Assembly: GCF_030814475.1 (NCBI RefSeq)
Contig: NZ_JAUSVF010000002.1
Coordinates: 930,001 to 994,000 of the forward strand
Reading direction: 5' to 3'
DNA from: Pararhizobium capsulatum DSM 1112
GTDB lineage: Bacteria > Pseudomonadota > Alphaproteobacteria > Rhizobiales > Rhizobiaceae
DNA: 64,000 bases
Below are positions 27,279 through 49,767 of the stretch, in pieces. The notes under the pieces were generated by a model that saw only the letters and a program-made list of their open reading frames with translations, did no database searches and was not told where the DNA came from. Within the stretch, counting starts at the first letter, position 1; the number at the start of each line of letters is the position of its first letter. The position numbers and the translations under genes are program-made.

Positions 27279-27290
27279 CGGTATTTCCAA

Positions 27291-29319: not shown

Positions 29320-29598
29320 ATGCGTGAAGACACCAGACTACCCACAACCAACGTCCCCCTCCTCAAGCTGGGCGCCTGCCAGTGCCGCTTCCCAGTTCGT
29401 GAAGATAAGTCAGTGCCCGGCGGCTACTTTTTTTGTGCCGGCGCGACTTCGCCGGACCGCGTCTATTGCGACCACCACCACGGCATCGTTACCGCCGTTG
29501 AGCAGCGTCGAAGCCGTTCAGGTTTCAATCTCGCTCTAACAGGATGCGGAAAAAGGCGCTTGCTGCGAGCGGACTGCCGTGATTCCATGCCCGAGTGA
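29320..29598 (+). CDS. Small GcrA-like zinc-finger protein or remnant
   Basis: 92-residue frame. Its middle resembles the C-terminal motif of GcrA-type cell-cycle regulators: LGACQCRFPVRED...GGYFFCAGATSPDRVYCDHHHG, with the Cys...FC...YC..HH spacing. The N-terminal helix-turn-helix of true GcrA is missing. The last 25 or so residues run into the sequence in front of the IS5 transposase gene and are probably not original. It could be a free-standing small protein of this type, which occur in rhizobia, or a fragment truncated by the insertion. The ribosome site is weak (GGAG 13 bases upstream). Confidence 0.5.
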   Translation: MREDTRLPTTNVPLLKLGACQCRFPVREDKSVPGGYFFCAGATSPDRVYCDHHHGIVTAVEQRRSRSGFNLALTGCGKRRLLRADCRDSMPE

Positions 29599-29618
29599 TT
29601 GGCCGGCAGGAGCAGGAC

Positions 29619-35801: not shown

Positions 35802-36524
35802 TCAGGCGCAGGCTGTGACTTTGGTTTCTTTTACGCGCGGATAGTCATAGGCGTTGACCTTCGAGGTCGTGTAGCCCGCGCCCACCAGCGCTTCCGCCAG
35901 CTTGATAGCCGCCGTCACACCGTCGATGACGGGAACTCCGGTTGCCGCACGCAGCCGATCGCAAAGAGCGGACATGCCGGCGCAGCCGAGGATGATGGCT
36001 TCGGCGCGGTCTTCCTTCTTCGCTGCCTCAATCTCGCGGATCAGCAGCAATTCTGCCCCGGCCGGATCTTCCTCAAGTCCAAGAACGGGAAGATTAATGG
36101 CGCGGACATTGCGGCAATGGCGCTCAGCACCGTAGCCGCTCACCAGATCTTCAATGATCGGGATAGAGCGTGGCAGCGTGGTGATGATCGAGAAGCGGCG
36201 GCTGATCGTCATGGCAACCTGCACGGCCGCCTGGCAGATGCCTATCACCGGTCCCCGCGCCACTTCGCGCGCGGCATGCAGGCCGGGATCATCGAAGCAA
36301 GCGACCACATAAGCATCGACCCCCAGTCGCTCGCCCTTGCGGATTTCATCGAGCATGCCCGGAACCGCCGCAGCTTCATCGGCGCCGCCTTCGATGCTGA
36401 CGGGCGTGTTGAGCGGATTGACGGCCGAGACGTCCGTGTCCTTCTGCTTGACGCGCAAGGCGCTATCCAGCGCCTGCGCGGTCATGGATGCCGTGGAATT
36501 CGGATTGATCAGACGGATATGCAT
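35802..36524 (-). CDS. hyuA: Hydantoin racemase
   Basis: Asp/Glu/hydantoin racemase superfamily protein of 240 residues that interconverts D- and L-5-monosubstituted hydantoins (cofactor-independent, two-cysteine mechanism). The cysteines fall at residue 76 (VVACFDDPG) and residue 181 (ILGCAGM), the positions described for the S. meliloti enzyme. The N-terminus MHIRLINPNST and the block VAMTISRRFSIITTL are also typical. The start at 36524 has AAAGG upstream. It is 22 bases downstream of the flavin reductase-like gene; both are read from the promoter region with operator site A. No hydantoinase or carbamoylase of the classical type is in the window. Confidence 0.82.
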   Translation of the reverse strand: MHIRLINPNSTASMTAQALDSALRVKQKDTDVSAVNPLNTPVSIEGGADEAAAVPGMLDEIRKGERLGVDAYVVACFDDPGLHAAREVARGPVIGICQAAVQVAMTISRRFSIITTLPRSIPIIEDLVSGYGAERHCRNVRAINLPVLGLEEDPAGAELLLIREIEAAKKEDRAEAIILGCAGMSALCDRLRAATGVPVIDGVTAAIKLAEALVGAGYTTSKVNAYDYPRVKETKVTACA

Positions 36525-36546
36525 GGTATCGAACCTTTCAAAGCCT

Positions 36547-37176
36547 TCAGTCGCGCTGCGGCTTGATGAAATCGGCAATCGGCGGAGCCTTCAGGACGAA
36601 CTGGCGGTCCGAGGTGATGTAGTTGTCGGCGTGCAACCGGGCGATCGGCTGGTAGTTTTCCGGATCGACATAACGCCCCTCCGCGTCCAGGCATTCCCGG
36701 CGGACGTGCATGTGCACGACCTCGCCGAGAACGAGGGTGCGGCGCGGATAATCAATGAGGCGCTCGACACGGCACTCGAAGACGCAGGGCGATTCGGCCG
36801 CATAGCTTGCATCGATCTGGCTGCAGGTGGTTGCCGTGAGGCCAGCCATGGATAGCTCGTCGACCTCGTTGTCGAAGCCGAGACCGCAGACAAGCATCTG
36901 CTGCGAGAGCGCCATGTCCACCATGTTGATGGCAAACTCCTGGGTGCGGCGGATATTCATCATCGTATCCTTTTCCTCGCCACTCAGGCGCGGCTGGATG
37001 CCAAGCACCACGATCGCCGGATCGTGGGAGAAAACATTGAAGAAGCTCATCGGCGCCGCGTTGCTGTGGCCGGCCTCGGAGCGCGTCGTCACGAGCGCGA
37101 TTGGCCGCGGCCCGATGAAATTCGTCAGCAGACGGTAGCGGCTGAGCGGCTCAAGCTCGGTAAAGTCGAATTCCAT
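36547..37176 (-). CDS. Flavin reductase-like, FMN-binding split-barrel protein
   Basis: 209-residue protein of the flavin reductase-like (DIM6/NTAB) family. It has the FMN-binding pattern RYRLLTNFIGPRPIALVTTRS, NAAPMSFFNVFSHDP and EFAINMVDMALSQQM. It may supply reduced flavin to a monooxygenase or act directly on the pathway substrate; no flavin monooxygenase gene is visible nearby. The start at 37176 has AGGA 8 bases upstream. It is the first gene of the two-gene hyuA operon, divergent from the GntR regulator. Confidence 0.85.
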   Translation of the reverse strand: MEFDFTELEPLSRYRLLTNFIGPRPIALVTTRSEAGHSNAAPMSFFNVFSHDPAIVVLGIQPRLSGEEKDTMMNIRRTQEFAINMVDMALSQQMLVCGLGFDNEVDELSMAGLTATTCSQIDASYAAESPCVFECRVERLIDYPRRTLVLGEVVHMHVRRECLDAEGRYVDPENYQPIARLHADNYITSDRQFVLKAPPIADFIKPQRD

Positions 37177-37200
37177 GGCGCGATCCTGAGTTAATAATCT

Positions 37201-37227
37201 ACAATATGATTTCATATTGTTGACAAT
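37201..37227. promoter_or_regulatory. Operator site A (ATTGT-TG-ACAAT) with extended palindrome
   Basis: ATTGTTGACAAT lies at 37216-37227. It overlaps a second, perfect palindrome ACAATATGA-TT-TCATATTGT (37201-37220), so ACAAT/ATTGT half-sites occur three times in 27 bases. It is in the divergent region between the flavin reductase-like gene and the gntR gene. The same 12-mer recurs at 44813 and 48114 and, imperfectly, at 49756. I infer that it is bound by the GntR protein encoded next to it, including autoregulation. Confidence 0.75.
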
Positions 37228-37307
37228 TCTGCAATCAAAATCCTGCTGTTGCAGTTGACTTTTTCCGCTGTTTCCCGCTTGTCTACCCCCAATGGGGAGT
37301 GAAATTG

Positions 37308-37985
37308 ATGACTGAGCAAACCGGTCCTTCTATACAACAGATTGTCGAGAAAGTCTGGCTGTCTATCGCCGAGCGCAGGCTCCGTCCCGGCGTTCAGCTG
37401 AAGGAGGAGCAGATGGCCGCGATTTTCAACGTCAGCCGCGCTCGCATCCGGCAGGCACTGGCCGTTCTTGAACGCGACGGGCTCGTCACCATCATCCCCA
37501 ATCGTGGCGCCTTCGTCTCCAAGCCCTCGGTCGAGGAAGCCCGTGATGTCTTCTTCGTGCGCCGTACGGTTGAGCGTCGTGTCGTCGAGCGCCTGTGCAA
37601 ATCGGTCTCAAAGGCCGATCTCAAGCGCCTGCGCGACCATGTCGCCAAGGAGCGGATTGCCAACGCCCAGGATGTCACCACCGACATCATCAAGCTTTCC
37701 GGCGGCTTCCACCTGCTGCTTTCCGAAACCGCAGGCTCCGACTTCCTGTTTACGACCATGCGGGACCTGATCTCCCGATCGTCCCTCATCACGGCCGTCT
37801 ACCGCAACACCAACCGTTTCAATTGCGGGCCGGACGAGCATGCCGAGATCGTCGAGGCGATCGCCAACAACGAGGCCGACAAGGCCACCCGTCTGATGGC
37901 CCATCACCTCGAACATGTGGAATCCGAACTCGACCTCAGCGAGATCCGCGACCTTTCCCACGACCTGCGCGCAGCGCTTGCCTGA
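37308..37985 (+). CDS. GntR-family regulator with FCD domain
   Basis: 225-residue transcription factor. The N-terminal winged helix has LKEEQMAAIFNVSRARIRQALAVLERDGLVTIIPNRGAFV split over the helix-turn-helix and wing. The C-terminal FCD ligand domain has the metal-binding type pattern with RRTVERRVVERL, an FHLLL motif and DEHAEIVEAIANNEADKATRLMAHHLEHVE. The start at 37308 follows GGGGAG 8 bases upstream; a GTG at 37299 is also open. It sits between the racemase operon and the importer-amidohydrolase operon and is the only regulator in the cluster. It is therefore the likely local repressor, released by a pathway compound. Confidence 0.92.
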   Translation: MTEQTGPSIQQIVEKVWLSIAERRLRPGVQLKEEQMAAIFNVSRARIRQALAVLERDGLVTIIPNRGAFVSKPSVEEARDVFFVRRTVERRVVERLCKSVSKADLKRLRDHVAKERIANAQDVTTDIIKLSGGFHLLLSETAGSDFLFTTMRDLISRSSLITAVYRNTNRFNCGPDEHAEIVEAIANNEADKATRLMAHHLEHVESELDLSEIRDLSHDLRAALA

Positions 37986-37994
37986 AGCACTGCC

Positions 37995-38978
37995 TCAGGC
38001 ACTTGTGGTATCGCCGGTCGCAAGATGGCAGGCGACGCGTGTGCCGTTTGCAAGCATGCGAACTGCCGGCACCTCCGCCGAACACCGTGCCGTAGCAATC
38101 GGGCAGCGCGGATGGAAGGTACAGCCGGACGGAGGTTTAAGCGGGCTCGGCACCTCGCCGCTCGCCAGTTCCCGGTCACGACGCGGCTCGGCGATATTGG
38201 GAATGGTCTGCAGCAGAAGCTGCGTATAGGGATGGCGCGGACGAGCGAAAAGCTCCTCGGTGTCACCTTCTTCCACAATGCGGCCGAGATACATGACGGC
38301 AATGCGATCCGACATGTGACGCACCACGCTCATGTCGTGACTGATGAAAAGATAGGTGAGACCCAGTTCATCCTGCAGCCGGCGCATGAGGTTCAGAACC
38401 TGCGCCTGCACCGAGACGTCGAGCGCCGACGTCGGCTCGTCGCAGACGAGGAACTCCGGCTCGCTCGCCAACGCCCGGGCGATCGAAATACGCTGACGCT
38501 GGCCGCCGGAAAACTCATGCGGGAATTTTTCACCATCAGAAGCGGACAGTCCGACGGTGAGCAGAAGCTCCTCGACCCGTTCGATGACCTCGGCCGGCGT
38601 CTCGCGCAGCTTCAGTTCGCGCAAGGGTTCGGCGATGATGTTCTTCACCCTCCAGCGCGGATTGAGCGAAGCATAGGGATCCTGGAAAATCATCTGGGCC
38701 GAAAGCGGCGCGCCGGAGCGGCCGGGCGCGAAGCGGACTTCGCCGCCAGTCGGCCTGTGTAGACCGGTGATCAGCCGCGCCACGGTGGATTTGCCGCAGC
38801 CGCTCTCGCCAACGATACTAAGGCAGCCGCCGGCCGGCACCGTGAAGTCGATATCGTTGACCGCCTGCACGAACTGGCGGGGCTTGCGCTCGATGAGACG
38901 ATTGAGCCAGGGCGCCGAGACGTCGAAGATCTTGACCAAGCCGTTGACGGTCAGGGCCGGCGTTTTCTGAGCGGTCAT
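37995..38978 (-). CDS. Dipeptide-type ABC importer ATPase, DppF/OppF-like
   Basis: 327-residue ATPase with Walker A GESGCGKST, signature FSGGQRQRI and Walker B FLVCDEPTSALD. The C-terminal oligopeptide-transporter domain has SGCTFHPRCPIATARC, with Cys residues suited to an Fe-S or metal site as in the DppF class. Its ATG overlaps the stop of the DppD-like gene (ATGA). It is the last gene of the six-gene operon read from the promoter at 44.8 kb and ends 10 bases from the convergent gntR gene. Confidence 0.94.
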   Translation of the reverse strand: MTAQKTPALTVNGLVKIFDVSAPWLNRLIERKPRQFVQAVNDIDFTVPAGGCLSIVGESGCGKSTVARLITGLHRPTGGEVRFAPGRSGAPLSAQMIFQDPYASLNPRWRVKNIIAEPLRELKLRETPAEVIERVEELLLTVGLSASDGEKFPHEFSGGQRQRISIARALASEPEFLVCDEPTSALDVSVQAQVLNLMRRLQDELGLTYLFISHDMSVVRHMSDRIAVMYLGRIVEEGDTEELFARPRHPYTQLLLQTIPNIAEPRRDRELASGEVPSPLKPPSGCTFHPRCPIATARCSAEVPAVRMLANGTRVACHLATGDTTSA

Positions 38979-39958
38979 ACTGTTCCTCCCGCGTTGAGCC
39001 AGCAGGCGCTAGCGCCTTCGCCGACGGCTATCAGTTCGGGCCGTTCGCTGAGACAGCGCGGGCCGGCGGAGCGGCAGCGCGGATTGAAGGCGCAACCGCT
39101 CGGGATGGCGTCGAGGCGCGGCATAGAGCCGTCGATCTGGTTGAGCCTTTCGACCCGTGCGCCAAGCGACGGGATCGAGGCCATCAGCCCCTGCGTATAG
39201 GGATGGCGCGGCGAATGCAGCACCTGCTCCACCGGGCCGATCTCGATGAGGCGGCCGGCATAGAGCACGGCAACGCGGTCGGCAGCTTCTGCAATGACGC
39301 CCATGTCATGGGTCACCAGCATGACGGCAGTCTGTTTCTCCTTGCAGAGCCGGCGCAGCAGGGAAATGATCTGGGCCTGGATCGACACGTCGAGCGCCGT
39401 GGTGGGCTCGTCGGCGATGATCAGCTTCGGAGACGCCGAAAGCGCAAGCGCGATTACCACGCGCTGCCGCATGCCGCCCGAAAACTGGTGCGGATAATGA
39501 TTGACCCGCTCTTCCGGCGAGGGAATGCCAACATCGCGCAGCAACTGCACGGCACGCGCCCGCGCCTCCGCCTTGCCGAGCGGCAGATGCTGGCGGATTG
39601 TTTCGGTAAGTTGCGCCCCGACCGTAAACAGCGGGTTGAGCGAGGTCAGCGGGTCCTGGAAGATCGCCCCGATCTCCCGGCCCCGGATCTGCTCCATCGC
39701 TCGGTCGCCGAGCGTATCGATACGGCGGTTGCCGAGCCAGATTTCGCCATCGGCGATATGACCGGGCCGTTCGAGAAGGCCCTGGATCGCCAGTCCAGTC
39801 ATCGACTTGCCAGCCCCGGATTCTCCGACGACGCCGAGGATTTCGCCGGCGCGGATCGAAAGGCTGATATCCGACAACGCCGTCACCGTGCCACGGCGCC
39901 CCGGAAACTCTACCTTGAGATTGCGGACGTCGATGACCGCCTGTTGTGCTTCACCCAT
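38975..39958 (-). CDS. Dipeptide-type ABC importer ATPase, DppD/OppD-like
   Basis: 327-residue ATPase with Walker A GESGAGKSM, signature FSGGMRQRV and Walker B LIIADEPTTALD. The C-terminal extension is SGCAFNPRCRSAGPRC. The start at 39958 has GAGG upstream and overlaps the end of the amidohydrolase gene by 8 bases; the open frame to 39973 adds nothing family-like. It pairs with the DppF-like ATPase to drive the permeases at 42.6-44.6 kb. Confidence 0.94.
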   Translation of the reverse strand: MGEAQQAVIDVRNLKVEFPGRRGTVTALSDISLSIRAGEILGVVGESGAGKSMTGLAIQGLLERPGHIADGEIWLGNRRIDTLGDRAMEQIRGREIGAIFQDPLTSLNPLFTVGAQLTETIRQHLPLGKAEARARAVQLLRDVGIPSPEERVNHYPHQFSGGMRQRVVIALALSASPKLIIADEPTTALDVSIQAQIISLLRRLCKEKQTAVMLVTHDMGVIAEAADRVAVLYAGRLIEIGPVEQVLHSPRHPYTQGLMASIPSLGARVERLNQIDGSMPRLDAIPSGCAFNPRCRSAGPRCLSERPELIAVGEGASACWLNAGGTV

Positions 39959-41444
39959 GTGTGTCCACCTCAATCGGATAGCTCGGCGGGAAGATGTCCG
40001 AAACCGAGGGATTGGCCCAGCTTCGCTCGGGGTATTTGGCGATCAGCCCGTCAAACTGGGCCTGCGCTTCGACGCGCGCCTTCTCCATGTCGATACCCGC
40101 CACCTTGCGCGACAGCATTGAGACGCGGCCATCGACGAAGACGGAGCGGGTAACTTTGCCGGAACCGCCGGTGACCAGCGTCGTGATCGGATCAATGGAC
40201 GGTGCCATGACCGTATCGTCGAGATCGAAGACGGCGATGTCGGCGCGGGCACCGGGCGAGAGATGGCCGAGATCCGGGCGGCCGAGTGCGCGGGCACCGC
40301 CGAGCGTAGCGGCATCGAAGAGATCGGCCGAGCGCAGCTGGTCGGGCGCGCGGTCGGCGATGCGGCCGGTGATCATTCCGGCAAGCAAGTTCATCAGCAT
40401 GTCGGCCGGCGTCGTATCCGTACCCATGGCGATATTGATGCCGCGCTTGCGGCAGGCGGAGAAGGAATAAAGGATGCTGCCGCCACGGCCCGAAACCAGC
40501 GGACAATGCACGATGGAAACGCCGTTTTCGGCATAAAGCGCTAGGTCTTCCTCGGTCGCGTTGGTGGCGTGCGGCGCGATCAGCCGGTCGCTGAGTAGAC
40601 CCGCCTTCGCCAGCCAGACCGGGGCGGTTGAGCCATAGAGGGCGCGCACGGTATCGACCTCCATGGCGCCTTGCGCCATATGCAGACGGAACTTGCAATC
40701 GAGATCGCGGGCGGCGGCGTCCGTGCGCTGGATCAGCGCCAGCGTCGATGTCTCGACCCGGTCGGGCGCCAACATGCCGCGCACGAGATCGCCGTGACGG
40801 CCGTTCTGCCGTTCTATATAGGCGATTGCGTCCTTCAGCCCTTGGAAGCCGCGCTCCTCGTCGAACACCGGTACGACACGGCCGGGTTCTTCCACCACCA
40901 TGCCGCCGGAGCGATAGGCTGGGCTCAGATAGACACGCAAGCCGAGTTCCCCGGCGGCATCTGCCGCCGCGTCGAATTCGGCCACGGTCTCTCCCCATTC
41001 GCGGTAGAACAGCGAAGCGATGGGCGCTGCGGTCGTAATGCCGTTCAGGAGAAGCTGACCGAAGGCGAAACGCTTCTGGAAGGCCAGTTCGGCCTCACTG
41101 TACATCTCATAGGGGCCAGCCTCGACATAGGAACGCGGCCAGACGCGGCCCTTGGCCCAGCCGGGATGATGGTCAATGCCGAGAATGGTGGTGTCGAGAT
41201 CTGAAAGCGCGTCAAGATCGATCAGGCCGGGGCTGATCAGGGCATTGCCGAAATCGATACGACGGGCCACCTCGCCGGGAAAACGATGGCCGACGAAGAG
41301 GATTTCGCCATTTTCGAAGACCACCTCGCCGTTGCGTAGAAGGCGATGGCTGCCATCCTTGTGGCCGACCACCCAGCTCGCGGTAACGAGCGTGCGGCCT
41401 TCGGGCCGACGGCCGAGCGCCAGAGATGCCAAAGCTTCGCTCAT
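39951..41444 (-). CDS. Amidohydrolase, paralogue 1
   Basis: 497-residue member of the amidohydrolase superfamily (urease/ATZ-TRZ-like). The usual N-terminal beta domain ends in NALISPGLIDLDALSDLD: the first metal motif HxH of the family is replaced by Asp-containing LDALSD. Later residues resemble metal ligands: FRLHMAQG, IAPHATNATEE and the Asp in MGTDTTPADM. The C-terminus has ARADIAVFDLDD and LVTGGSGKVTRSVFVDGR, typical of the group. The ATG overlaps the stop of the cytosine deaminase-like gene (TGATG). It is about half identical by eye to the gene at 44850-46355. The reaction is unknown, presumably hydrolysis of a C-N bond in the imported compound. Confidence 0.85.
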   Translation of the reverse strand: MSEALASLALGRRPEGRTLVTASWVVGHKDGSHRLLRNGEVVFENGEILFVGHRFPGEVARRIDFGNALISPGLIDLDALSDLDTTILGIDHHPGWAKGRVWPRSYVEAGPYEMYSEAELAFQKRFAFGQLLLNGITTAAPIASLFYREWGETVAEFDAAADAAGELGLRVYLSPAYRSGGMVVEEPGRVVPVFDEERGFQGLKDAIAYIERQNGRHGDLVRGMLAPDRVETSTLALIQRTDAAARDLDCKFRLHMAQGAMEVDTVRALYGSTAPVWLAKAGLLSDRLIAPHATNATEEDLALYAENGVSIVHCPLVSGRGGSILYSFSACRKRGINIAMGTDTTPADMLMNLLAGMITGRIADRAPDQLRSADLFDAATLGGARALGRPDLGHLSPGARADIAVFDLDDTVMAPSIDPITTLVTGGSGKVTRSVFVDGRVSMLSRKVAGIDMEKARVEAQAQFDGLIAKYPERSWANPSVSDIFPPSYPIEVDTHG

Positions 41445-42637
41445 CACGGCATCTCCACCACCGCCTTGCCCTGACGGGCGGTGACCCGGCCGCCCTTGAG
41501 GACCAGTGTCCGCGGCGCGATATCGACGACGGCGTGGGCGAGCGTCTCGCCGGTCAGCAGCGTGAAATCGGCATTGCAGCCGACATCCAGGCCATAGTTT
41601 TCAAGCCGCATGACATCGGCGCCGCCCTGCGAAACGACGTGAAGCACATGGGCAAGCTCGATATCCGAGCGCAGCCCGTTCTTCATGCCGATGATCTTGG
41701 CGCGGTCCAGCATGTCCGGCTGGCCCCAGGGACCCCAGGTATCGCGAATGCCATCACAACCACCGCCGACGCGCACTCCGGCTTCCTTCAGCCGCATGAT
41801 CGAAGGCACGTTGGCAGAAGGTGCACCGGTCGTCAGGATCGCGACGTCGAGGCGGGCGATCTGCTCGATCAGCTTGCCGACCCTCAGACAGTCATTCATG
41901 CCGAGCGCGAAAGCGTGGCTGATCGCCACCTTGCCTTCCATGCCGTTGGCGCGGATGCGCTCGAAAATCAGTTCCATGGTGAAGGCGCCGAGATCGGCGG
42001 CCTCGTGAAGATGAATATCGATCGCAACGCCGTGCTTGACCGCCAGCGCAAAGAGGATGTCGAGCTGGCCCTTGGGGTCGCGGTCGATGCCGCAGGGATC
42101 GATGCCGCCCAAAACTTCGCAGCCCTGGCGCAGCGCTTCGTCCAGAAGCTCTACCGTGCCAGGCATCACCATGACGCCGGATTGCGGGAAGGCGACGATC
42201 TCGATGTCGATGATGCCCTTCAGCTTTTCGCGCGTCTCCCAGATGCCCTCGACCAGAGAAAGCCCATGGGTCGGGTCGATATCGACATGGCTGCGGATAT
42301 GGGTGCCGCCATGGGCGACGAGCCCGATCGCGTGGCGCATGGATTGGCGATGCGGGTCGATGCCGATATCGAGACGGTTTTCACGTTCGAAATCGATCCG
42401 CTCGCGCAGGATCGCCGCGCGGTTGTTGACGTGCCAGGGCATGCCCCAGGTCGTCTTGTCGAGATGGGTGTGGGCGTCGATCAGGCCGGGCGCCACGATC
42501 GCGCCAGCGCCATCCTCGATGGCCATGCCAGGCGCAGCCTCGAATGTCCCGAAGCCGGCTATCTTCCCGTCCTTGATAAGGATGTCGCAGCTTTCGCCGG
42601 CCATCGGCCTGACATTGCGGAGCAAGAGATCGTGCAT
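41444..42637 (-). CDS. Cytosine deaminase-like amidohydrolase
   Basis: 397-residue metal-dependent hydrolase resembling cytosine deaminase/CodA-type proteins. It has the metal motif in VAPGLIDAHTHLDKTTWGMP (HTH, near residue 60), then RSHVDIDP, DIHLHEAAD, VAISHAFALG and the Asp in VGGGCDGIRDTWGPWGQPDM. It is expected to remove an amino or open an amide group on a heterocycle. The start at 42637 has GAGGTAAG upstream; a much longer open frame overlapping the permease gene is rejected. It is 6 bases downstream of the permease stop. Confidence 0.87.
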   Translation of the reverse strand: MHDLLLRNVRPMAGESCDILIKDGKIAGFGTFEAAPGMAIEDGAGAIVAPGLIDAHTHLDKTTWGMPWHVNNRAAILRERIDFERENRLDIGIDPHRQSMRHAIGLVAHGGTHIRSHVDIDPTHGLSLVEGIWETREKLKGIIDIEIVAFPQSGVMVMPGTVELLDEALRQGCEVLGGIDPCGIDRDPKGQLDILFALAVKHGVAIDIHLHEAADLGAFTMELIFERIRANGMEGKVAISHAFALGMNDCLRVGKLIEQIARLDVAILTTGAPSANVPSIMRLKEAGVRVGGGCDGIRDTWGPWGQPDMLDRAKIIGMKNGLRSDIELAHVLHVVSQGGADVMRLENYGLDVGCNADFTLLTGETLAHAVVDIAPRTLVLKGGRVTARQGKAVVEMP

Positions 42638-42642
42638 GGAAC

Positions 42643-43593
42643 TTACCTCAGTTTCGGATTGAGCGCATCGCGCAGCCAGTCGCCGAGCATGTTGACGGTG
42701 ACGACCAGCAGGCAGAGTTGAACAACGGGGAACAGGACGATCCACCACGAACCGGAAAACAGGAACTGGTTGCCGATGCGAATCAGCGTTCCGAGCGAAG
42801 GCTGGCTCGGCGGCATGCCGATGCCGAGGAACGACAGCGTCGCCTCCGTCAGGATCGCCATGCCGAAGTTGAGGGTGGCCGCGACCATGATCGGCGTCAG
42901 CGTGTTGGGCAGGATGTGATGGGCCATGATGCGCCGCGCCGGCACGCCGATAAGCTTGGCCGCCGACACATAGTCCTTGCCGCTTTCGACAATCGCCTGG
43001 GCACGCACCGTTCGCGCATATTGCACCCAGGCCGACAGCGCGATGGCGAGCACCAGCACCGCGGAGGCCCCGGCATCGCGCAGGTATTCCGGAAGCATCT
43101 GGCGCACTACAGTCGAAACGAGGATGGCGACGAGGATGGTCGGGATCGACAGCGTGATGTCGCCGATACGCATCAGCAGATTGTCGATGAAGCCGCCGAA
43201 ATAACCGGCGACCAGACCGGCCGTCATGCCGATCACCAGCGACAGCGCGACCGAGGCCATGCCGATGACGATGGAGATGCGGGTGCCATAGAGGATCGCG
43301 GAGAGCATGTCGCGGCCTTGCGTATCGGTGCCGAGAAGATACGGCATTTCGCCGCCCTCCTGCCATATCGGCGGCAGCTCGGCCTTCCACATGTCGAGCG
43401 AGGCCCCGTCATAAGGATTCTGCGGCGCGATCAACGGCGCAAAGACCGCCGTCAGGATCAGGATCGCCAGAAGCAGGGCGCTGATCTTTGCCGACTTGCT
43501 CTGGGTGAAGGACCACCAGACATCGCTGTTGCGGATGCGCTTCAAGAGCGAAGGACGGACGGCCTTGGTCGTTTGCGAAAGTTCCCTGGTCAT
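42643..43593 (-). CDS. Dipeptide-type ABC permease, DppC-like
   Basis: 316-residue membrane permease with the N-terminal cytoplasmic tail of DppC proteins. It has LLGTDTQGRDMLSAILYGTR, the loop DYVSAAKLIGVPARRIMAHHILPN and six membrane spans. GGGAG lies upstream of the ATG at 43593. It follows the DppB-like gene by 18 bases. Confidence 0.94.
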   Translation of the reverse strand: MTRELSQTTKAVRPSLLKRIRNSDVWWSFTQSKSAKISALLLAILILTAVFAPLIAPQNPYDGASLDMWKAELPPIWQEGGEMPYLLGTDTQGRDMLSAILYGTRISIVIGMASVALSLVIGMTAGLVAGYFGGFIDNLLMRIGDITLSIPTILVAILVSTVVRQMLPEYLRDAGASAVLVLAIALSAWVQYARTVRAQAIVESGKDYVSAAKLIGVPARRIMAHHILPNTLTPIMVAATLNFGMAILTEATLSFLGIGMPPSQPSLGTLIRIGNQFLFSGSWWIVLFPVVQLCLLVVTVNMLGDWLRDALNPKLR

Positions 43594-43611
43594 CGAACCG
43601 GCTCCCGTTTC

Positions 43612-44580
43612 TTAGCGTGCGGTACGCAAGCGCGGATCGATCACCGCATAGGCGATGTCAACCAGCGTGTTGAGGACAACAAAGATGAAGGAAATGATGC
43701 AGAGATAGGCGGCCATGACCGGGATATCGAGGAAGGTCACGGCCTGGATGAACAGCATGCCCATGCCCGGCCACTGGAACACGGTCTCGGTGATCAGCGC
43801 AAAGGCGATCAGCGAGCCGACATTCATGGCCGTCATGGTGACGACGGGCATAAGACAGTTGCGCAGGGCATGGCGGAAATAGATGCGCCAGCGCGGAATG
43901 CCACGGGCACGGGCGAATTTCACGAAATCGGAGCGCAGCACTTCCAGCATCTCCGCCCGCACAAGGCGCATCACAAGGGTGATCTGGTAAAGCGACAGCG
44001 CAATCGAGGGCAAGATCAGCGCTGCGCGACCGGAAGGGGTGAGCAGGCCGGTCGACCACCAGCCGAGCTGCACCACGTCGCCGCGACCGAAGGCAGGCGC
44101 CCAGCCCATAATCACCGAGAAGACGAGGATCAACAGGATACCGACGACGAAGCTCGGCAGCGACACCCCGACAATTGAGAGGAACTGCAGGCCCTCCGCA
44201 TACCATTTTCCGCGCCTGATCGCGGTCAGAACGCCGAGTGGAAGACCAACCGCCAGCGAGATGATGGTCGCCACCAGAACCAGCTCCAGAGTGGCGGGAA
44301 AGCGCTCCGCAATCAGCGGCAGCACCTTCTGTCCGTTACGGTAGGAAACGCCGAAATTTCCCTGCGCCGCATCGGTGACGAAGCGTGCATATTGCACCAC
44401 CAGACCGTCGTTAAGGCCGAGGCGGTCGCGCAGCGCATCCTTGTCCGCCTGCGACGTCTGCTCGCCCACCATCAGCTCGACGGGATCGCCCGCGAGCCGG
44501 AAGATCAGAAAGGCAAGCAGGGCGACGGCAAGCATCACCAGGATTGCATTTCCGAGGCGCTTGATGATGAAAACCAGCAT
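43612..44580 (-). CDS. Dipeptide-type ABC permease, DppB-like
   Basis: 322-residue permease opening MLVFIIKRLGNAILVMLAVA. The DppB features are RDRLGLNDGLVVQYARFVTDAAQGNFG, the contact loop DFVKFARARGIPRWRIYFRHALRN, and the ending IDIAYAVIDPRLR (as LVDIAYAVIDPRLRTAR). GAGAGG precedes the ATG. It is the first gene behind the promoter and operator B at 44.8 kb. Confidence 0.94.
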   Translation of the reverse strand: MLVFIIKRLGNAILVMLAVALLAFLIFRLAGDPVELMVGEQTSQADKDALRDRLGLNDGLVVQYARFVTDAAQGNFGVSYRNGQKVLPLIAERFPATLELVLVATIISLAVGLPLGVLTAIRRGKWYAEGLQFLSIVGVSLPSFVVGILLILVFSVIMGWAPAFGRGDVVQLGWWSTGLLTPSGRAALILPSIALSLYQITLVMRLVRAEMLEVLRSDFVKFARARGIPRWRIYFRHALRNCLMPVVTMTAMNVGSLIAFALITETVFQWPGMGMLFIQAVTFLDIPVMAAYLCIISFIFVVLNTLVDIAYAVIDPRLRTAR

Positions 44581-44780
44581 AGTGACCTCTCGGCTTCGCT
44601 CCGGCCTCCGGCAGTCGCCGCCCGGACGGTTCGATCAATGACATTCAATGTTGGGGAAGGTTATTTTGGGGGCACATGCCAAGGTACAACCGGCCGGCAC
44701 ACAGCCCAAACCGCAGCGGCCTCAGCCCCCGCACGACGAGCGCTCCTCGCACACAACCTCCCTTGTTCTCGTCATCCGGC

Positions 44781-44824
44781 ATTAAATCAGGGTTTCGAAT
44801 CTTGTCAACTTAATTGTAGACAAT
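44781..44824 (-). promoter_or_regulatory. Promoter with operator site B before the permease operon
   Basis: Minus strand: operator ATTGTCTACAAT (44824-44813), four bases, -35 TTGACA (44808-44803), 16-base spacer, -10 TTTAAT (44786-44781). It lies 200 bases upstream of the DppB-like start. The gap 44581-44780 otherwise holds nothing I recognise. The operator-to--35 distance is the same as at site C. Confidence 0.8.
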
Positions 44825-44849
44825 TTTTGAAGACCAGTACGCCATTTCC

Positions 44850-46355
44850 TCAACATTCTTTGTCGCCTTTGTCTGTCCACAACGAATAGCCCGGTGAAAA
44901 CAATGCCTCTACCGGGGGATGCTCCCAGCTTCTTTCAGGATACTTGGCAAGGAGCCCCTCGAACTGGCTTTGGGCCTGCTTGCGCGCCGCGTGCATGTCG
45001 AAGCCCGAAAGCTTTCCTTCCAGCATGGAAATCCGTCCGTCGACAAAGACGGCCTGCGTGACCTTGCCTGAACCGCCGAGCACCAGCGTCGTGATCGGAT
45101 CGACGCTGGGTGTCATGTAAAGATCATCGAGACGGAACACAGCGACGTCGGCACGGGTGCCCGAGCAAAGCCTGCCGATATCGGTTCGGCCGAGCGCTTT
45201 GGCACCGCCAAGTGTCGCCGCGTTAAACAGGTCGGCAGAGAGCACTGCATCGGATTTTTTTTCGCTGATGCGACAGGTAACGAGCCCCATCAGCAAGTTC
45301 ATGAGCATGTCGGGCGGCGCCGTATCCGTCGCCATGCCGATATTGATGCCGAGCCTGCGACATAACGCGAAGGAATTCAGAACGCTGCCCATGCGGGCCG
45401 AAACCATCGGCGAGTGGGCGATGGAAACACCATTGATGGCGTAAAGCCGAAGGTCCTCATCGGTGGCATAGGTGGCGTGGGGTGCGATCAGCCGTTCGCC
45501 GAGCAGGCCATGGCTTGCCATCCAGCCCGGCCCGGTCGCACCATGCAGGGCCCGCATCGTTTCGAGCTCGGCTGGTCCCTGCGCCATATGCAGCCGCACC
45601 TGGCAATCGAGATCGCCGGCTGCCGCCATGGTCCGCTGCAAAAGCTCCAGCGTACAGGTCTCGACGCGATCCGGCGCCAGCATGCCGTTGACAAGGCCAC
45701 CGTGACGGCCCTGCTGCCGCTCGATGAAGGAAATCGCATCGTTCAGGCCGGCAAGCCCTCTCGCCTCGTCAAAGACCGGAACCATCTTACCCGGCGCTTC
45801 CAGCACGATGCCGCCGGAGCGATAGGCCGGGCTCAGGAAAACCCGAAGACCCAGCTCGCCCGCCGCATCCGCAGCCGCGTCGAACTCCGCGACTGTCTCG
45901 GCCCATTCGCGATAATAGAGCGAGGCAACGGGTGCAGCCGTGGTGACGCCGTTCAGAAGCTGAAGACCAAAGGCGAACTTCTTTTGAAAAGCCAGTTCTT
46001 CCTGACTGTACATTTCATAAGGCCCGCGCTCGACATAGGAGCGCGGCCAGATACGGCCCCTCGCCCATCCAGGCTGATTGTCGAGAACCAGTGTATAGGT
46101 GTCGAGATCGGAAAGCGCGTCGAGATCGATCAGGCCGGGGCTGATCAGCGCTGCCCCGAAATCGATGCGGCGGGCAACCTCCCCGCGAAAGCACGGACCG
46201 GCATAGATCACCGCGCCGTCCTCCATCACCATCTCGCCGCCTGGCACGAGGCGGTGGCCGCCCTCGCGCCAGGCCAGCAGCCAGTCAGCCGTCAGCAGTG
46301 TGCGGCCTGCCGGCCGTTCGCCGAGAGTGAGTGTATGGAGAGCATGGGATGTCAT
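44850..46355 (-). CDS. Amidohydrolase, paralogue 2
   Basis: 501-residue amidohydrolase closely similar over its whole length to the gene at 39951-41444 (shared blocks include DFGAALISPGLIDLDALSDLD, WPRSYVE-GPYEMYS and GLRVFLSPAYRSGGI). It has the same replaced first metal motif, and LHMAQG, APHATYATDEDL and MATDTAPPDM as later ligands. The C-terminus lacks the last residues of paralogue 1. It follows the binding-protein gene after a hairpin terminator, so readthrough expression is likely. The start at 46355 lies in a tandem 10-bp repeat GGGATGTCAT; the ribosome site is weak, so the start is uncertain. Confidence 0.85.
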   Translation of the reverse strand: MTSHALHTLTLGERPAGRTLLTADWLLAWREGGHRLVPGGEMVMEDGAVIYAGPCFRGEVARRIDFGAALISPGLIDLDALSDLDTYTLVLDNQPGWARGRIWPRSYVERGPYEMYSQEELAFQKKFAFGLQLLNGVTTAAPVASLYYREWAETVAEFDAAADAAGELGLRVFLSPAYRSGGIVLEAPGKMVPVFDEARGLAGLNDAISFIERQQGRHGGLVNGMLAPDRVETCTLELLQRTMAAAGDLDCQVRLHMAQGPAELETMRALHGATGPGWMASHGLLGERLIAPHATYATDEDLRLYAINGVSIAHSPMVSARMGSVLNSFALCRRLGINIGMATDTAPPDMLMNLLMGLVTCRISEKKSDAVLSADLFNAATLGGAKALGRTDIGRLCSGTRADVAVFRLDDLYMTPSVDPITTLVLGGSGKVTQAVFVDGRISMLEGKLSGFDMHAARKQAQSQFEGLLAKYPERSWEHPPVEALFSPGYSLWTDKGDKEC

Positions 46356-46390
46356 GGGATGTCATGGCATGTCCGGCTGAATGTCCAAAA

Positions 46391-46430
46391 CATATGAAAA
46401 GAGCGCCTCACGCGGTCATGAGACGCTCTT
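46391..46430 (-). terminator. Hairpin between binding-protein and amidohydrolase genes
   Basis: Minus strand AAGAGCG-TCTCA (46430-46419) pairs with TGAGG-CGCTCTT (46410-46399), then TTTTCATATG. It is 27 bases after the binding-protein stop. Such structures commonly raise the ratio of binding protein to downstream products by partial termination. Confidence 0.8.
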
Positions 46431-46457
46431 GTCCTGTCAAAAACTCAGGCTATCGCC

Positions 46458-48023
46458 TTAATTGCCCATCTGGGTAAGCCAGTGGCGCGGCTTGTTGTCA
46501 GCGCGGAAGTCGACGCTTTTGACGGTTCCGAGCATGGCCCAGGCGATCGGCTGCTGGTGCAGCGGGATCAGCATGACTTCATCCTTGGCGATCTTGAGCG
46601 CCTGCCCTTCCAGAGCGATACGCTTGGTGCTGTCCGGCTCCTGCGCAGCCGCGGCAACCAGCTTGTCGAGCGCCGGGTTGGACCAGTTGCCGTAGTTGGA
46701 GACGCCCATCGCGCCCTGTTTGGTCGACAGCACCTGCGCCAGCAGCGAATAGGCATCGAGCGTCGGCTCGTTTGCCCAGCTGAGGTTGAACATATCAGCC
46801 TTGCCGGCGCTGCGCTTCGGTGTCTGCACGGCGCGTGGCGCGATATCGATCGTCGGGTTGAAGCCGCCACGCTTCATCATGTTGGCGACGCCTGAGCAGA
46901 TGTCTTCTTCGTTGATGCTCTCGTCGTTCATGCAGGTATAGGTGAACGCGAGATCCGACTGGCCGGCCTCGGCGAGAAGCTTCTTCGAGAGTTCCGGATC
47001 GGCCGGCGCGTAGGTGTCGAGCGACTTATCGTAACCGGATATTTCCGGGGCGATCAGCGAGCCGGACGGACGGGCGAGCCCACGCATGACCTTCTTGTTG
47101 ATCAGGTCGCGGTCGACGGTGGCTTCGACGGCCTGGCGCACGCGGATGTCGTTGAAGGGGTTCGGGCGGCCGTCTTCCAGCTTTTCCTTGCGGTTGAAGT
47201 TGAGGAAGACAGTGCGCAGCTCGGTACGCTTCTTGACGGTGATGCCCGCCGAGGATTCAAGCCGCGGCAAGTCCTGGATAGGCGCGGAATCGATCAGGTC
47301 GATCTCGCCGGAGAGAAGGGCCGCGACACGGGTTGCGGCCGAGGTGATCGGCATGAATTCGATGCGGTCGAGATTGTGCTTCTTTTCATCCCACCAGCCT
47401 TCGTTGGCGACAAGAACCGTCTTGCTGTCCGGCACCCGGCTTTCAAGCTTGAAAGGGCCTGTGCCGTTGGTGTGCATGGTCGTGTAGCCTTCGGTCTTCG
47501 TGGCGACGTCCGTCGGCTTTTCGCTGTTGTTGGCCTTCAGCCAGCCGGCATCGAAGATGAAGATGTTGGTGATGTCGTTGAGGAACAGCGAGGTCGGCGC
47601 GGTAACAGTGAGATCGACGGTATAGTCATCCACCTTTGTGACGCCGGCATAGAGCGGGATGTTGCCGCGCAGCGGCGAGGTCTGATCGGAAACACGGGTG
47701 AAGGAAGCGACCACGTCGTCGGCCGTAAAATCGGCGCCGTCGTGGAACTTCACGCCCTTGCGCAGGGTGAAGCGCCAGGTCTTGCCGTCAACCAGCTTCC
47801 ATTCGGTGGCGAGCGCCGGTTCGATCTGGAAGTCCGGCCCATAGCGCACCAGGCCCTCATAGATATGGTTGAGAAAAGCGAGGTTCGAGGTCGATGGCAC
47901 CGAATAGGGATCGAGCGAGTAGAGATCGGCCCGCCCGCCCCAGCGAAGTGTCTCCGCACGGGCCGGCACAGCAATGGCAGCCGCAGCGAGCGCGGCAAGA
48001 ATGAAGCTTTTTACGCGGGACAT
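46458..48023 (-). CDS. Dipeptide-type ABC substrate-binding protein
   Basis: 521-residue periplasmic SBP_bac_5 protein. Its signal peptide is MSRVKSFILAALAAAAIAVP, with cleavage after ARA. The mature start ETLRWGGRADLYSLDPYS and the block FTLRKGVKFHDGADFTADDV are typical. It serves the importer at 38-44.6 kb, which has no other binding protein. Two Cys in the C-terminal half (YTCMNDESINEEDICSG) could form a disulfide. The promoter with operator C lies upstream and is shared with the divergent amidohydrolase. The ligand is unknown. Confidence 0.93.
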   Translation of the reverse strand: MSRVKSFILAALAAAAIAVPARAETLRWGGRADLYSLDPYSVPSTSNLAFLNHIYEGLVRYGPDFQIEPALATEWKLVDGKTWRFTLRKGVKFHDGADFTADDVVASFTRVSDQTSPLRGNIPLYAGVTKVDDYTVDLTVTAPTSLFLNDITNIFIFDAGWLKANNSEKPTDVATKTEGYTTMHTNGTGPFKLESRVPDSKTVLVANEGWWDEKKHNLDRIEFMPITSAATRVAALLSGEIDLIDSAPIQDLPRLESSAGITVKKRTELRTVFLNFNRKEKLEDGRPNPFNDIRVRQAVEATVDRDLINKKVMRGLARPSGSLIAPEISGYDKSLDTYAPADPELSKKLLAEAGQSDLAFTYTCMNDESINEEDICSGVANMMKRGGFNPTIDIAPRAVQTPKRSAGKADMFNLSWANEPTLDAYSLLAQVLSTKQGAMGVSNYGNWSNPALDKLVAAAAQEPDSTKRIALEGQALKIAKDEVMLIPLHQQPIAWAMLGTVKSVDFRADNKPRHWLTQMGN

Positions 48024-48080
48024 GTTTCCCCCCTTATTGATCGTTGTTGAGTCCGGGCTGCGAAGCCCTCAGCGAAGGGG

Positions 48081-48125
48081 AGTATTGTTTCGTCCATCTC
48101 TATTGTCAATTATATTGTTGACAAT
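48081..48125. promoter_or_regulatory. Promoter region with operator site C
   Basis: Operator ATTGTTGACAAT at 48114-48125. On the minus strand, -35 TTGACA (48109-48104) comes four bases after it, then a 17-base spacer and -10 AATACT (48086-48081), serving the binding-protein gene. An extra ATTGTCAAT half-palindrome at 48102-48110 overlaps this -35. The site lies between the divergent binding-protein and plus-strand amidohydrolase genes and may control both. Confidence 0.8.
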
Positions 48126-48192
48126 TATCGTAACCAAAAATCGGCACGAAGATCGCCAGCGGCGGTGGTTGCGAAAAGAGGAGAAAAACGGG

Positions 48193-49668
48193 ATGGGAAA
48201 TTTCCTGCTGCTTCACGGCACAATCGTAACAGTGGACCGCGAGCGGCGCATCATCGAAGACGGCGCGCTGGCCATCACCGATGACAGGATTATCGACATC
48301 GGCACAGCCGAGGATCTGGTACCGCGACACGCGGACAAACAGGTCATCGATTGCCGTGGCAAGCTGATCATCCCGGGCCTGATCGATGCCCACGGCCATG
48401 CCGGCCATGCGCTGATCCGCAGCATCGCCGCGGACACCAATTCGATGTGGATGCGTGTCGTCACCCCGACCTACTACCACTATGTGACGCGCGACTACTG
48501 GTATGCCGACGGCCTCGTCTCCGGCATTGAACGGCTTCGTGCCGGGGTCACGACCGGCGCCAGCATCATCACCTCCATGCCGCGCGCGGACGACCCGGTC
48601 TTCGCCATCAATCACGCCCGCGCCTATAGCGAGATCGGTCTGCGCGAGATCATCTGCGTCGGCCCGTCGGGCCAGCCCTGGCCGCATCCCGTGACCCGCT
48701 GGGAGAGCGGCAAGCCTAAGCGGCGCAACGTCTCTTTCGAAGAGATGATGGAGGGCACGGAAGCGGTCATCGAGGCCCTGAATGGAAGTGCAGGCGGTCG
48801 TATCAAGGTGTTCGTGACGCCGTTCACGATCGTCCCATCAGTTGAGCCGTCGAATGCATCGACGCCGGATCAGGCGGTGAAACTCACCGAAAACGATCGA
48901 ATGCAGGCCCGCCGTGTGCGCGAAACCGCCCGGAAATGGGGCGTCCGGATGCATTCCGACGCCTTTGCCGGCCAAATTCGCATGGCCTACCAGGACAAGG
49001 AAAATGCGCTGTTGGGGCCGGATATCCACCTCCAGCACTGCTGGGGCATCTCACACGAGGAGATAGACATCCTCGCCGAGACCGGTACCCACGTCACTCA
49101 CGCCCCTCCTGGCCGCTCGACACCAATCATGGAGATGATGTCCAAGGGTATCCGCGTTGCAATCACCACCGACGGCGCAGCGCCGAGCCGGCACTTCGAC
49201 ATGCTGCAGACAGCAAGGCTCGCGCAGTTCACCCAGCACCTGCTCCACAATCATGACCGCTACCTTCTGCCGCCCGGCAAGGTCTTCGAAATGATCACTA
49301 TCGATGCCGCCCGCGCTATCGGCATGGAACACGAGATCGGCTCGCTCGAAATCGGCAAGAAGGCTGATATCGCCATCATCGACATGCGCAAGCCCCATCT
49401 CATGCCCATGTGGATGCCCCTTCACCGGCTTATCCATCAGGTGCTTGGAAGCGATGTCGATACGGTCATCGTCGACGGCAAAATCCTGATGGAAGGCGGC
49501 AAGGTTCTGACCACCGATGTTGATGCGGCCATCACCTTCGGCCAGCAGGAAGCGCTGGCGCTCGCCGCACGCGCCGGCCTGCAACCGCATATGCATGACC
49601 CCGGCTGGGGCAAGCTGCTGCGCACCTTCGACGAACCGGTCATTCCACCTCAGCCGCCGACCTGCTGA
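48193..49668 (+). CDS. ATZ/TRZ-type amidohydrolase
   Basis: 491-residue amidohydrolase of the chlorohydrolase/deaminase type. It starts MGNFLLLHGTIVTVDRERR and has the metal motif in LIIPGLIDAHGHAGHALIRS (HGH, near residue 65), MHSDAF, LQHCWGISHEE and the Asp in AITTDGAAPSR. The C-terminal closing block is IGSLEIGKKADIAIIDMRKPHLMP. GAGGAG lies about 10 bases upstream of the ATG. It differs clearly from the paralogue pair on the other strand. As the only plus-strand enzyme gene in the cluster, divergent from the binding-protein gene across operator C, it may catalyse the first hydrolytic step. The substrate is unknown. Confidence 0.88.
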   Translation: MGNFLLLHGTIVTVDRERRIIEDGALAITDDRIIDIGTAEDLVPRHADKQVIDCRGKLIIPGLIDAHGHAGHALIRSIAADTNSMWMRVVTPTYYHYVTRDYWYADGLVSGIERLRAGVTTGASIITSMPRADDPVFAINHARAYSEIGLREIICVGPSGQPWPHPVTRWESGKPKRRNVSFEEMMEGTEAVIEALNGSAGGRIKVFVTPFTIVPSVEPSNASTPDQAVKLTENDRMQARRVRETARKWGVRMHSDAFAGQIRMAYQDKENALLGPDIHLQHCWGISHEEIDILAETGTHVTHAPPGRSTPIMEMMSKGIRVAITTDGAAPSRHFDMLQTARLAQFTQHLLHNHDRYLLPPGKVFEMITIDAARAIGMEHEIGSLEIGKKADIAIIDMRKPHLMPMWMPLHRLIHQVLGSDVDTVIVDGKILMEGGKVLTTDVDAAITFGQQEALALAARAGLQPHMHDPGWGKLLRTFDEPVIPPQPPTC

Positions 49669-49755
49669 TCGGCGGAAAGGGCGTCCAGACCGCATGTCCG
49701 GCGCGTTGCGGGATATGCCCCACAAATACCTCGATGCTATCAATTTCAGAAATAT

Positions 49756-49767
49756 ATTGTAGACAAA
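49756..49767. promoter_or_regulatory. Imperfect operator site D at the cluster's right edge
   Basis: ATTGTAGACAAA matches the cluster motif in 11 of 12 positions. It sits after the plus-strand amidohydrolase, where no promoter is needed for the present genes. A short plus-strand frame begins at 49815 (MPNRIFSFEDIDPRRVLSAPVR) and dissolves into the exporter gene. This may be the start of a lost pathway gene. The 49669-49890 gap holds nothing else. Confidence 0.5.

Follow-up and report, generated by a model that had tools for sequence, protein, structure and literature searches.

The window analysed here is a stretch of 64,000 nucleotides from Pararhizobium capsulatum DSM 1112 (parent genome, 6.48 Mb), and all coordinates are positions in this window. 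It carries an island of twelve genes, which are listed with their candidate operators in Table 1. Profile matches bear out the gene set of the initial annotation, that is, a racemase, a flavin reductase-like protein (FLR), a GntR/FCD regulator, an importer whose solute-binding protein (SBP) and DppBCDF form a complete subunit set, and four amidohydrolases. The racemase cysteines named there, Cys76 and Cys181, presumably the catalytic pair, are found with the 240-residue start, and two of the amidohydrolases, AHS1 and AHS2, are indeed paralogs (68% identical) without an HxH motif. Within the operon of the importer are the genes of an enzyme pair, CDA and AHS1. The dN/dS values of 0.04-0.15 across all twelve genes indicate purifying selection, and an Rfam scan of the window gave no match.

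Table 1. Genes and candidate regulatory sites of the island (window positions)
Feature	Position	Strand	Basis
Racemase, Asp/Glu/hydantoin racemase family, 240 aa	35802..36524	-	PF01177; Cys76 and Cys181 with the given start
FLR, flavin reductase-like protein	36547..37176	-	PF01613, 82 bits
Candidate operator ATTGTTGACAAT, FLR/GntR divergent gap	37216..37227		palindrome match, conserved in relatives
GntR/FCD transcriptional regulator	37299..37985	+	PF00392 and PF07729
DppF-type ABC ATPase	37995..38978	-	profile match
DppD-type ABC ATPase	38975..39958	-	profile match
AHS1, PRK06151 amidohydrolase without HxH	39951..41447	-	NF004801, 765 bits (cut-off 416)
CDA, cytosine-deaminase/AtzC-like amidohydrolase (PRK05985) with HxH	41444..42637	-	NF004636, 552 bits (cut-off 408)
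DppC-type permease	42643..43593	-	PF00528 and PF12911
DppB-type permease	43612..44580	-	PF00528 and PF19300
Candidate operator ATTGTAGACAAT (+ strand letters), upstream of DppB operon	44813..44824		palindrome match
AHS2, AHS1 paralog without HxH	44850..46355	-	NF004801, 699 bits; single clade in tree
SBP, solute-binding protein family 5	46458..48023	-	PF00496, 305.6 bits
Candidate operator ATTGTTGACAAT, SBP/ATZ divergent gap	48114..48125		palindrome match
ATZ, ATZ/TRZ-type amidohydrolase with HxH	48193..49668	+	PF01979, 111 bits
One-mismatch palindrome site ATTGTAGACAAA, downstream of ATZ	49756..49767		palindrome match

Candidate operators of the island

Each transcription unit of the island, including the GntR/FCD gene, has the palindrome ATTGTNNACAAT at its promoter gap. 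This sequence has three matches in the window, one at each of the three promoter gaps (0.02 expected), and only one further match in the whole 6.48-Mb genome, four in total. In 68 related loci, 102 matches were found against a mean of 0.65 in controls shuffled in two-base blocks, at least one being present in 48 of the 68 loci and none lying within the island genes. The exact palindrome is absent from 20 of these loci, and there is none in 15 loci of the Pseudomonas side, an assignment inferred from named database proteins. Its presence tracks identity to the island GntR (44 of 47 against 2 of 14), in a comparison from which six duplicate loci were dropped by name and whose Fisher p ignores relatedness, a confounder. 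The island thus looks like one regulon, apparently under one regulator, with the palindromes as candidate operators.

Whole-genome searches of 14 relatives gave 55 exact palindromes, 30 of them outside the island, where a reversed version of the pattern, as control, gave 5 matches in all, so other regulators may share the same site. Ten of the 30 were fetched: one (L126) has a GntR gene (57%) and an ATZ-like gene just downstream, two (L129 and L130) are beside AHS3-type genes, and the remaining seven had no convincing gene context. A figure of no palindromes more than 600 bases outside the island was set aside as generous, since the island span had included stray Dpp paralogs. For SBP there is a 10-of-12 sigma-70-like match (48109-48081) with the SBP/ATZ operator four bases upstream; this match alone proves nothing, because the promoter scan gave 5 matches against 3.5 in shuffles. 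In a related locus (L058), the letters of the one-mismatch site recur upstream of the gene for a second transporter, of the SBP_bac_3 type. The palindrome offers a simple handle for finding the inducer.

Core genes and the exchange of importers

The initial annotation called for a comparative search for the same gene set. Most of the island genes recur together, beyond what chance would give, in most of the 68 loci, which remained after identical AHS1 matches were dropped; the racemase is found in 53, and AHS2 (17) and the fourth amidohydrolase, ATZ (40), less often. Genes were counted at 36% identity or more over at least half the length, and some stretches end at contig ends, so that these counts are lower bounds. 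The taxonomic spread comprises rhizobia, Brucellaceae, Rhodobacterales and, by database names, Pseudomonas. CDA adjoins AHS1 in 59 of the 61 CDA-bearing loci, most commonly with an overlap of 4 bases, and in all 15 Pseudomonas-side loci. The latter keep GntR, CDA and AHS1, and neither the racemase nor the fourth amidohydrolase was found in them (E <= 1e-12); FLR was not found in 12 of the 68 loci, nor in two of the 15. Five loci (L044, L047, L052, L053 and L055) have AHS1 with no other island enzyme in the fetched stretch, and in the first three, which lack CDA, its neighbours are unrelated enzymes or wrong frames. As judged from gene presence, the core is GntR, an importer, CDA adjacent to a PRK06151 protein, and FLR. 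Extra genes that recur next to the island were also sought; most of the candidates were antisense frames, and the one genuine module was AHS3 (an HxH-bearing relative) with an SBP_bac_3 importer.

The importer itself is exchanged. On the Pseudomonas side it is of the polyamine type and PotABCD-like, although only a PotA model is exceeded at its cut-off among the Pot-type models. A set of enzymes whose members stay together behind importers of different classes is a useful lead to a nutrient of these bacteria. It bears also on the question whether the locus serves ordinary peptide uptake, with the hydrolases as chance neighbours. SBP belongs to family 5 and has relatives among the Dpp/Opp and AapF proteins; moreover, profile alignment places the Glu of its SWANEP segment at the DppA Asp of GWTGD, the residue that binds the peptide amino terminus, which leaves room for peptides. 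Nevertheless, the genes overlap, one palindrome stands at all units, and CDA-AHS1 is kept (with FLR in 13 of 15) behind the different importer of the Pseudomonas side, so this explanation is extremely improbable.

Amidohydrolases lacking the HxH motif

AHS1 and AHS2 both exceed the NF004801 cut-off of 416 bits and are thereby PRK06151 members. At the motif they read GLIDLDALSDLDT, where relatives have GLIDxHxH. The AHS1 site residues D79, D83, D85, H256, Q259, H293 and D344 (numbered from the GTG at 41447) are conserved: among 240 database relatives checked, Asp79, 83 and 85 replace HxH in 239, and the other four residues are kept in all 240. The first motif position is D in 239 and a gap in one, so that HxH is present in none. 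These relatives are the best 120 each of 2573 (E <= 1e-20) and 1698 (E <= 1e-80) proteins, each list drawn from 8000 scored candidates. H256, H293 and D344 align with the His, His and Asp of 7ww2; in this family the two His lie on strands 5 and 6 and the Asp on strand 8, and HxH lies at the end of strand 1. The catalytic Glu of HxxE is Gln259 in 240 of 240, and the nearest HxH-bearing relatives also have Gln. The conserved Asp/His site, together with the purifying selection on AHS1 (dN/dS, 0.07-0.08), points to a rebuilt site and not to decay.

AHS2 is a duplicate inside the AHS1 family (18 rows form a single clade with support 100) and is found in only a quarter of the loci, so the four amidohydrolases, although present, are inflated as four pathway steps. 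No remnant of a second binding protein was found in the AHS2-DppB gap, where the search gave one 12-residue match (E 0.39).

AHS1 may be inactive, and it is doubtful but worth serious attention that AHS1 and AHS2 are pseudoenzymes, metal-free scaffolds or regulators complexed with CDA or another partner, for which CRMPs and inactive dihydroorotase domains are precedents. Both proteins have lost HxH and carry Gln for the HxxE acid, and AHS1 is often paired with CDA. On the other hand, a dead site usually drifts, unlike the near-invariant residues above, and members of the AHS family occur without CDA in 7 of the 68 loci. Furthermore, HxH-less activity has a precedent in NagA: QxN replaces HxH in the E. 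coli and V. cholerae enzymes, and a QxN mutant of a mycobacterial enzyme has reduced but retained activity (PMC6016474).

A bolder and rather unlikely proposal is that PRK06151 is a catalytically active branch of the amidohydrolase superfamily in which a single ancient exchange put a carboxylate cluster (D79, D83 and D85 with H256, H293 and D344) where HxH had been. Its members would then bind a different metal or none and catalyse reactions without precedent in the superfamily. Regularly accompanied by a PRK05985 deaminase and a flavin reductase, the branch would form a portable core behind Dpp-, polyamine- and possibly basic-amino-acid-type importers and act on an undescribed class of cationic N-heterocycles; 2-(alkylamino)imidazolones, among them the hydroimidazolones derived from arginine, would be an example. 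Some of the HxH-less relatives are named chlorohydrolase, N-ethylammeline chlorohydrolase, 8-oxoguanine deaminase or 5'-deoxyadenosine deaminase, all of which assume the missing site.

Proposed substrate and related systems

The other enzymes are of more regular types. CDA has a match of 350.5 bits to 6nbo and contains the segments AHTHLD, AFPQ, DIHLHE, SHAF and CDGIRD; its metal site is complete, and H58, H60, H211, H243 and D297 do not vary in 79 loci, a set that retains near-duplicates (the numbering is that of a query with two residues more than the CDA of Table 1). The nearest solved relative of FLR, and also of the Pseudomonas-side FLR, is 2-nitrobenzoate nitroreductase 4z85 (132.7 bits for FLR), and its cofactor would be FMN, as in the family. 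No Pfam match to a monooxygenase partner was found among the ten island proteins scanned, and none is named within the cluster in seven annotated relatives, whose gene tables are incomplete; alternatively, a monooxygenase encoded at another place in the genome could be the partner of FLR. Further out from the cluster are FAD-dependent oxidoreductases in three relatives (L098, L103 and L104) and a ring-hydroxylating dioxygenase in another (L100).

s-Triazine or other xenobiotic degradation is brought to mind by the likeness of CDA to AtzC (189 bits) and of ATZ to AtzA (4v1x, 148.5 bits). It is hardly credible, because the island has diverged over several genera under purifying selection and, among the island proteins searched against Pfam, none matched a triazine ring-cleavage family. 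Salvage of pterins, lumazines or modified purines, in which CDA would deaminate 2-amino-4-oxo heterocycles, is clearly improbable too. It would suit the deaminase-type site of CDA and the NCS1 transporter (L102) and nucleoside deaminase (L103) beside the cluster, but each of these neighbours occurs in only one of nine annotated records, and a link of CDA to Arad3529, a pterin deaminase of Agrobacterium radiobacter K84, would be tentative. Purines and pterins, moreover, are not known to be common substrates of Dpp-type or polyamine-type importers.

The racemase (PF01177, 199.6 bits with a start six residues longer) is closest among solved structures to 3qvj, a "putative hydantoin racemase" which we take to be HpxA, and to allantoin racemase 5lfd, and the cluster of Defluviimonas (L101) lies near allantoicase and glyoxylate genes. 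Both facts favour a hydantoin- or allantoin-type pathway in which a chiral cyclic ureide is racemised and hydrolysed. This pathway is nonetheless unlikely, since no hydantoinase, allantoinase or carbamoylase family is reached in the island and the racemase is not core. The statement in the initial annotation that no hydantoinase or carbamoylase is present holds for the island, where the best match to the D-hydantoinase model TIGR02033 is 29.6 bits, in ATZ (cut-off 393.25), but not for the genome, which has three TIGR02033 and three TIGR01879 matches over cut-off elsewhere. A racemase paralog (47%) on contig C7 adjoins a D-hydantoinase match over cut-off, so the classical pair lies elsewhere in the genome. 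Of the import and stepwise hydrolysis of a chiral cyclic amide or ureide proposed earlier, the importer and the hydrolytic set for an N-compound, apparently under one regulator, stand; chirality or a ureide as the defining feature does not, because the racemase and the fourth amidohydrolase were not found in the 15 Pseudomonas-side loci.

The island probably imports and dismantles a nitrogen-rich small molecule. A small, perhaps cationic, amino-substituted N-heterocycle would fit its genes better than a chiral ureide, the transporter classes being the one pointer to a charge; the ligands of Dpp-type binding proteins, however, are of widely differing kinds. The following scheme of one substrate-inducible catabolic regulon has about an even chance of being right. 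GntR would repress the island until the substrate enters through SBP and DppBCDF. CDA, with its complete deaminase/AtzC-type site, would hydrolyse off an exocyclic amine, FLR itself would reduce the ring or an N-function, and AHS1 would act on the product via its rebuilt site, in which D79 replaces the first HxH histidine and H256, H293 and D344 are kept; beyond CDA, the order is guesswork. Lineage-specific additions, namely the racemase, ATZ and also AHS2, would deal with enantiomers and further C-N hydrolysis.

The initial annotation saw no match to the hydantoin, pyrimidine, creatinine or triazine pathways, and no described pathway cluster with this gene set was found in the nine annotated records or among the open-licence papers searched. 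Its Dpp-type importer and the Pot-type importer of the Pseudomonas side are both complete sets, two unrelated classes with the same enzyme core. CDA belongs to the same family as AtzC and the PRK05985 proteins (6nbo, 2qt3), over the NF004636 cut-off, but lacks a triazine gene set and is usually beside a PRK06151 partner. FLR can be compared with 2-nitrobenzoate nitroreductase (4z85) and with RutF-type flavin reductases, but its island has no monooxygenase partner. The racemase shares its family and both cysteines with those of hyu clusters and with allantoin racemase; unlike hyu clusters, the island is without hydantoinase and carbamoylase, and its racemase is dispensable across relatives. The description of the PRK06151 model (NF004801), to which AHS1 and AHS2 belong by score, gives no tested function and is silent on the loss of HxH. 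NagA of the E. coli type is a working amidohydrolase without HxH (PMC6016474), and the likeness of the AHS proteins to it would lie in that loss; they belong to another family, have the replacement D-x-L-(S/G)-D-x-D and carry Gln for the HxxE acid.

Gene content and layout of the island

Every gene that the initial annotation placed in the island was found at its given place by profile and family matches, and the racemase carries cysteines at 76 and 181, as had been stated, when the better start is used. From the layout there are five transcription units: the HxH-bearing ATZ/TRZ-type amidohydrolase (ATZ) alone; the family 5 solute-binding protein (SBP) with AHS2; DppB-DppC-CDA-AHS1-DppD-DppF; the flavin reductase-like protein (FLR) with the racemase; and the GntR/FCD regulator (GntR). 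Here AHS1 and AHS2 are paralogous PRK06151 amidohydrolases lacking HxH, CDA is the cytosine deaminase/AtzC-like enzyme and DppBCDF is the ABC importer. The CDA stop overlaps the AHS1 start, and AHS1 and DppD, as well as DppD and DppF, also overlap. Elsewhere in the window, another SBP_bac_5/DppBC-type set comes with genes for an FmdA/AmdA acetamidase/formamidase and for a two-domain ABC ATPase, and adjoins a Peripla_BP_5-type binding protein gene; a transposase (DUF772 + DDE domain) separates the two importer regions.

Positions of features in the window, elsewhere in its genome (contigs C1, C4, C7) and in two further loci
Feature	Position	Length	Remark
Racemase	35802-36524	240 residues	Start revised
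CDA	41444-42637	397 residues	Start revised
Palindrome matches in window	37216, 44813, 48114		Exact
Site behind ATZ	49756-49767		One mismatch
Second SBP_bac_5/DppBC-type set	19452-27356
Transposase	29595-30743
Fourth palindrome match	G000:C1:80031-80042		Exact
Paralogous cluster L056	G000:C4:117001-137000
D-hydantoinase match	C7:62172-63530
Racemase paralog	C7:63630-64328		47%
L126, in relative G051	G051:C11:140001-156000
L072	6667-11497

A candidate operator shared by the promoter gaps

A single palindrome, ATTGTNNACAAT, is common to all three island intergenic regions read. The 64 kb window contains just three matches to it, against 0.02 expected, and none of 100 shuffles had as many; the whole genome (6,477,857 bases) contains only four, the fourth lying upstream of an sdhC-like frame (identified by eye) which adjoins an SdhA-like frame. 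Across 68 related loci (deduplicated; 1,425,301 bases) there are 102 matches spread over 48 loci, where 20 shuffles averaged 0.65 and gave at most 2, and none of the 102 falls inside an island gene. The palindrome is present in 44 of the 47 loci with a GntR at least 55% identical, against 2 of 14 others, these loci being mutually related; the exact form is missing from 20 of the 68 loci and from the Pseudomonas-side loci described below. One site lies 4 bases from a match to a promoter of SBP, and the promoter scan as a whole gave 5 matches versus 3.5 in shuffles, which is not above them. The island appears to be one regulon under this candidate operator. When 14 relatives were searched whole, 30 of their 55 sites lay off the island, versus 5 for the reversed control pattern, which argues that the same letters are probably used by other regulators or by paralogs of the island GntR.

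In locus L089 the exact palindrome stands about 70 bases upstream of an SBP_bac_3-type gene adjoining ATZ, and in L058 a one-mismatch site, TTTGTCTACAAT, stands about 80 bases upstream of the counterpart. The window has the letters of the L058 site behind ATZ on the other strand, where no SBP_bac_3-type gene is found, and this site is probably a relic. The SBP_bac_3 module of this genome is on contig C4 (L056), a paralogous cluster that holds AHS3, an HxH-bearing relative, with an SBP_bac_3 importer, and also an ATZ-like gene accompanied by a DHDPS-family gene, an SDR and a Dpp-type importer. L126 has an exact palindrome with two genes behind it, one for a GntR (57%) and one ATZ-like (40%), and pieces of SBP_bac_3 type close by; this may be a sister regulon.

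The enzyme core, its importers and its possible substrate

AHS1 is present in 67 of the 68 loci, followed by DppD (63), SBP (62), CDA and DppF (61 each), DppC (59), DppB (58), GntR (57), FLR (56), the racemase (53), ATZ (40) and AHS2 (17). CDA adjoins AHS1 in 59 of the 61 loci that bear it, most commonly with a 4-base overlap, and in five of the 68 loci no other island enzyme lies near AHS1. The distribution of AHS1 relatives is patchy: 6 of 299 genomes phylum-wide (E <= 1e-120) and 5 of 385 in the window's class, its own genome counted in both. Three of those six belong to one genus outside that class, termed Pseudomonas-side because its AHS1 relative has named matches in, among others, P. 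citronellolis (87%) and P. guariconensis (80%); 17 of 25 genomes of this genus have the gene, and 1 of 369 in its class, namely the centre genome itself. One record, L072, titled Bacillus subtilis SK6B4, contains the ATZ (83%), SBP (76%) and AHS2 (72%) of the island, and its assembly is probably mislabelled or contaminated.

All 15 Pseudomonas-side loci compared, out of the 17, have the order GntR, PotABCD-like importer, CDA (about 40%) and AHS1 (about 47%), with FLR next in 13; the racemase and ATZ have no match in them at E 1e-12. The importer exceeds the PotA cut-off (366 vs 355.6 bits), the PotB, PotC and PotD/F models match its subunits below their cut-offs, and the best solved relatives of its binding protein are polyamine-binding proteins. 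The same enzyme core therefore occurs with two unrelated importer classes, and importer class is a weak guide to the ligand; on the profile alignment, peptides are a possible ligand too.

By its family, CDA would be a hydrolytic deaminase or N-dealkylaminase, racemases of the island enzyme's family invert the configuration at an acidic carbon, and FLR belongs to the flavin reductase family, its nearest PDB relative being 2-nitrobenzoate nitroreductase. The substrate may be a small, perhaps cationic, amino-substituted N-heterocycle, on which CDA would act early; FLR would perform a reduction, AHS1 would take the product, and the racemase and ATZ would widen the range. The chiral ureide proposed at first would give the racemase a central place, which the comparative data do not. 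The D-hydantoinase match and the racemase paralog on C7 look like the genome's classical hydantoin pair.

A probably rebuilt amidohydrolase site

AHS1 (765 bits) and AHS2 (699 bits) exceed the PRK06151 cut-off of 416, and both read GLIDLDALSDLDT at the position of their relatives' GLIDxHxH. Among 240 database proteins, the best 120 each from searches with a rhizobial and a Pseudomonas-side member, none has HxH; D79 (the exception being a gap), D83 and D85 are each kept in 239 and L81 in 238, H256, Q259, H293, H314 and D344 in all 240, while at E232 a Gln stands in 25 of the 120 from the second search. In a quick tree, the 86 HxH-less rows fall on the same side of one branch (support 96), the very divergent row L057 being unsurely placed; AHS2 forms a single clade of 18 rows (support 100), and the closest HxH-bearing relatives (AHS3, identity about 30%) group apart. 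AHS1 has a dN/dS of 0.08 with L060 and of 0.07 with L091; for AHS2 the value with L060 is 0.13, AHS2 against L091 being a comparison of paralogs. Taken as sequence, the site reads as rebuilt and maintained.

The island is a real and conserved catabolic system that seems to be co-regulated and whose general kind is known; no description of it was found in the open-licence literature searched or in the annotated relatives' records inspected. Its unusual part is the rebuilt amidohydrolase family. HxH-less amidohydrolases can function, as with QxN in NagA of E. coli and V. cholerae, and in a mycobacterial NagA a QxN mutant has reduced activity and an AxA mutant none (PMC6016474).
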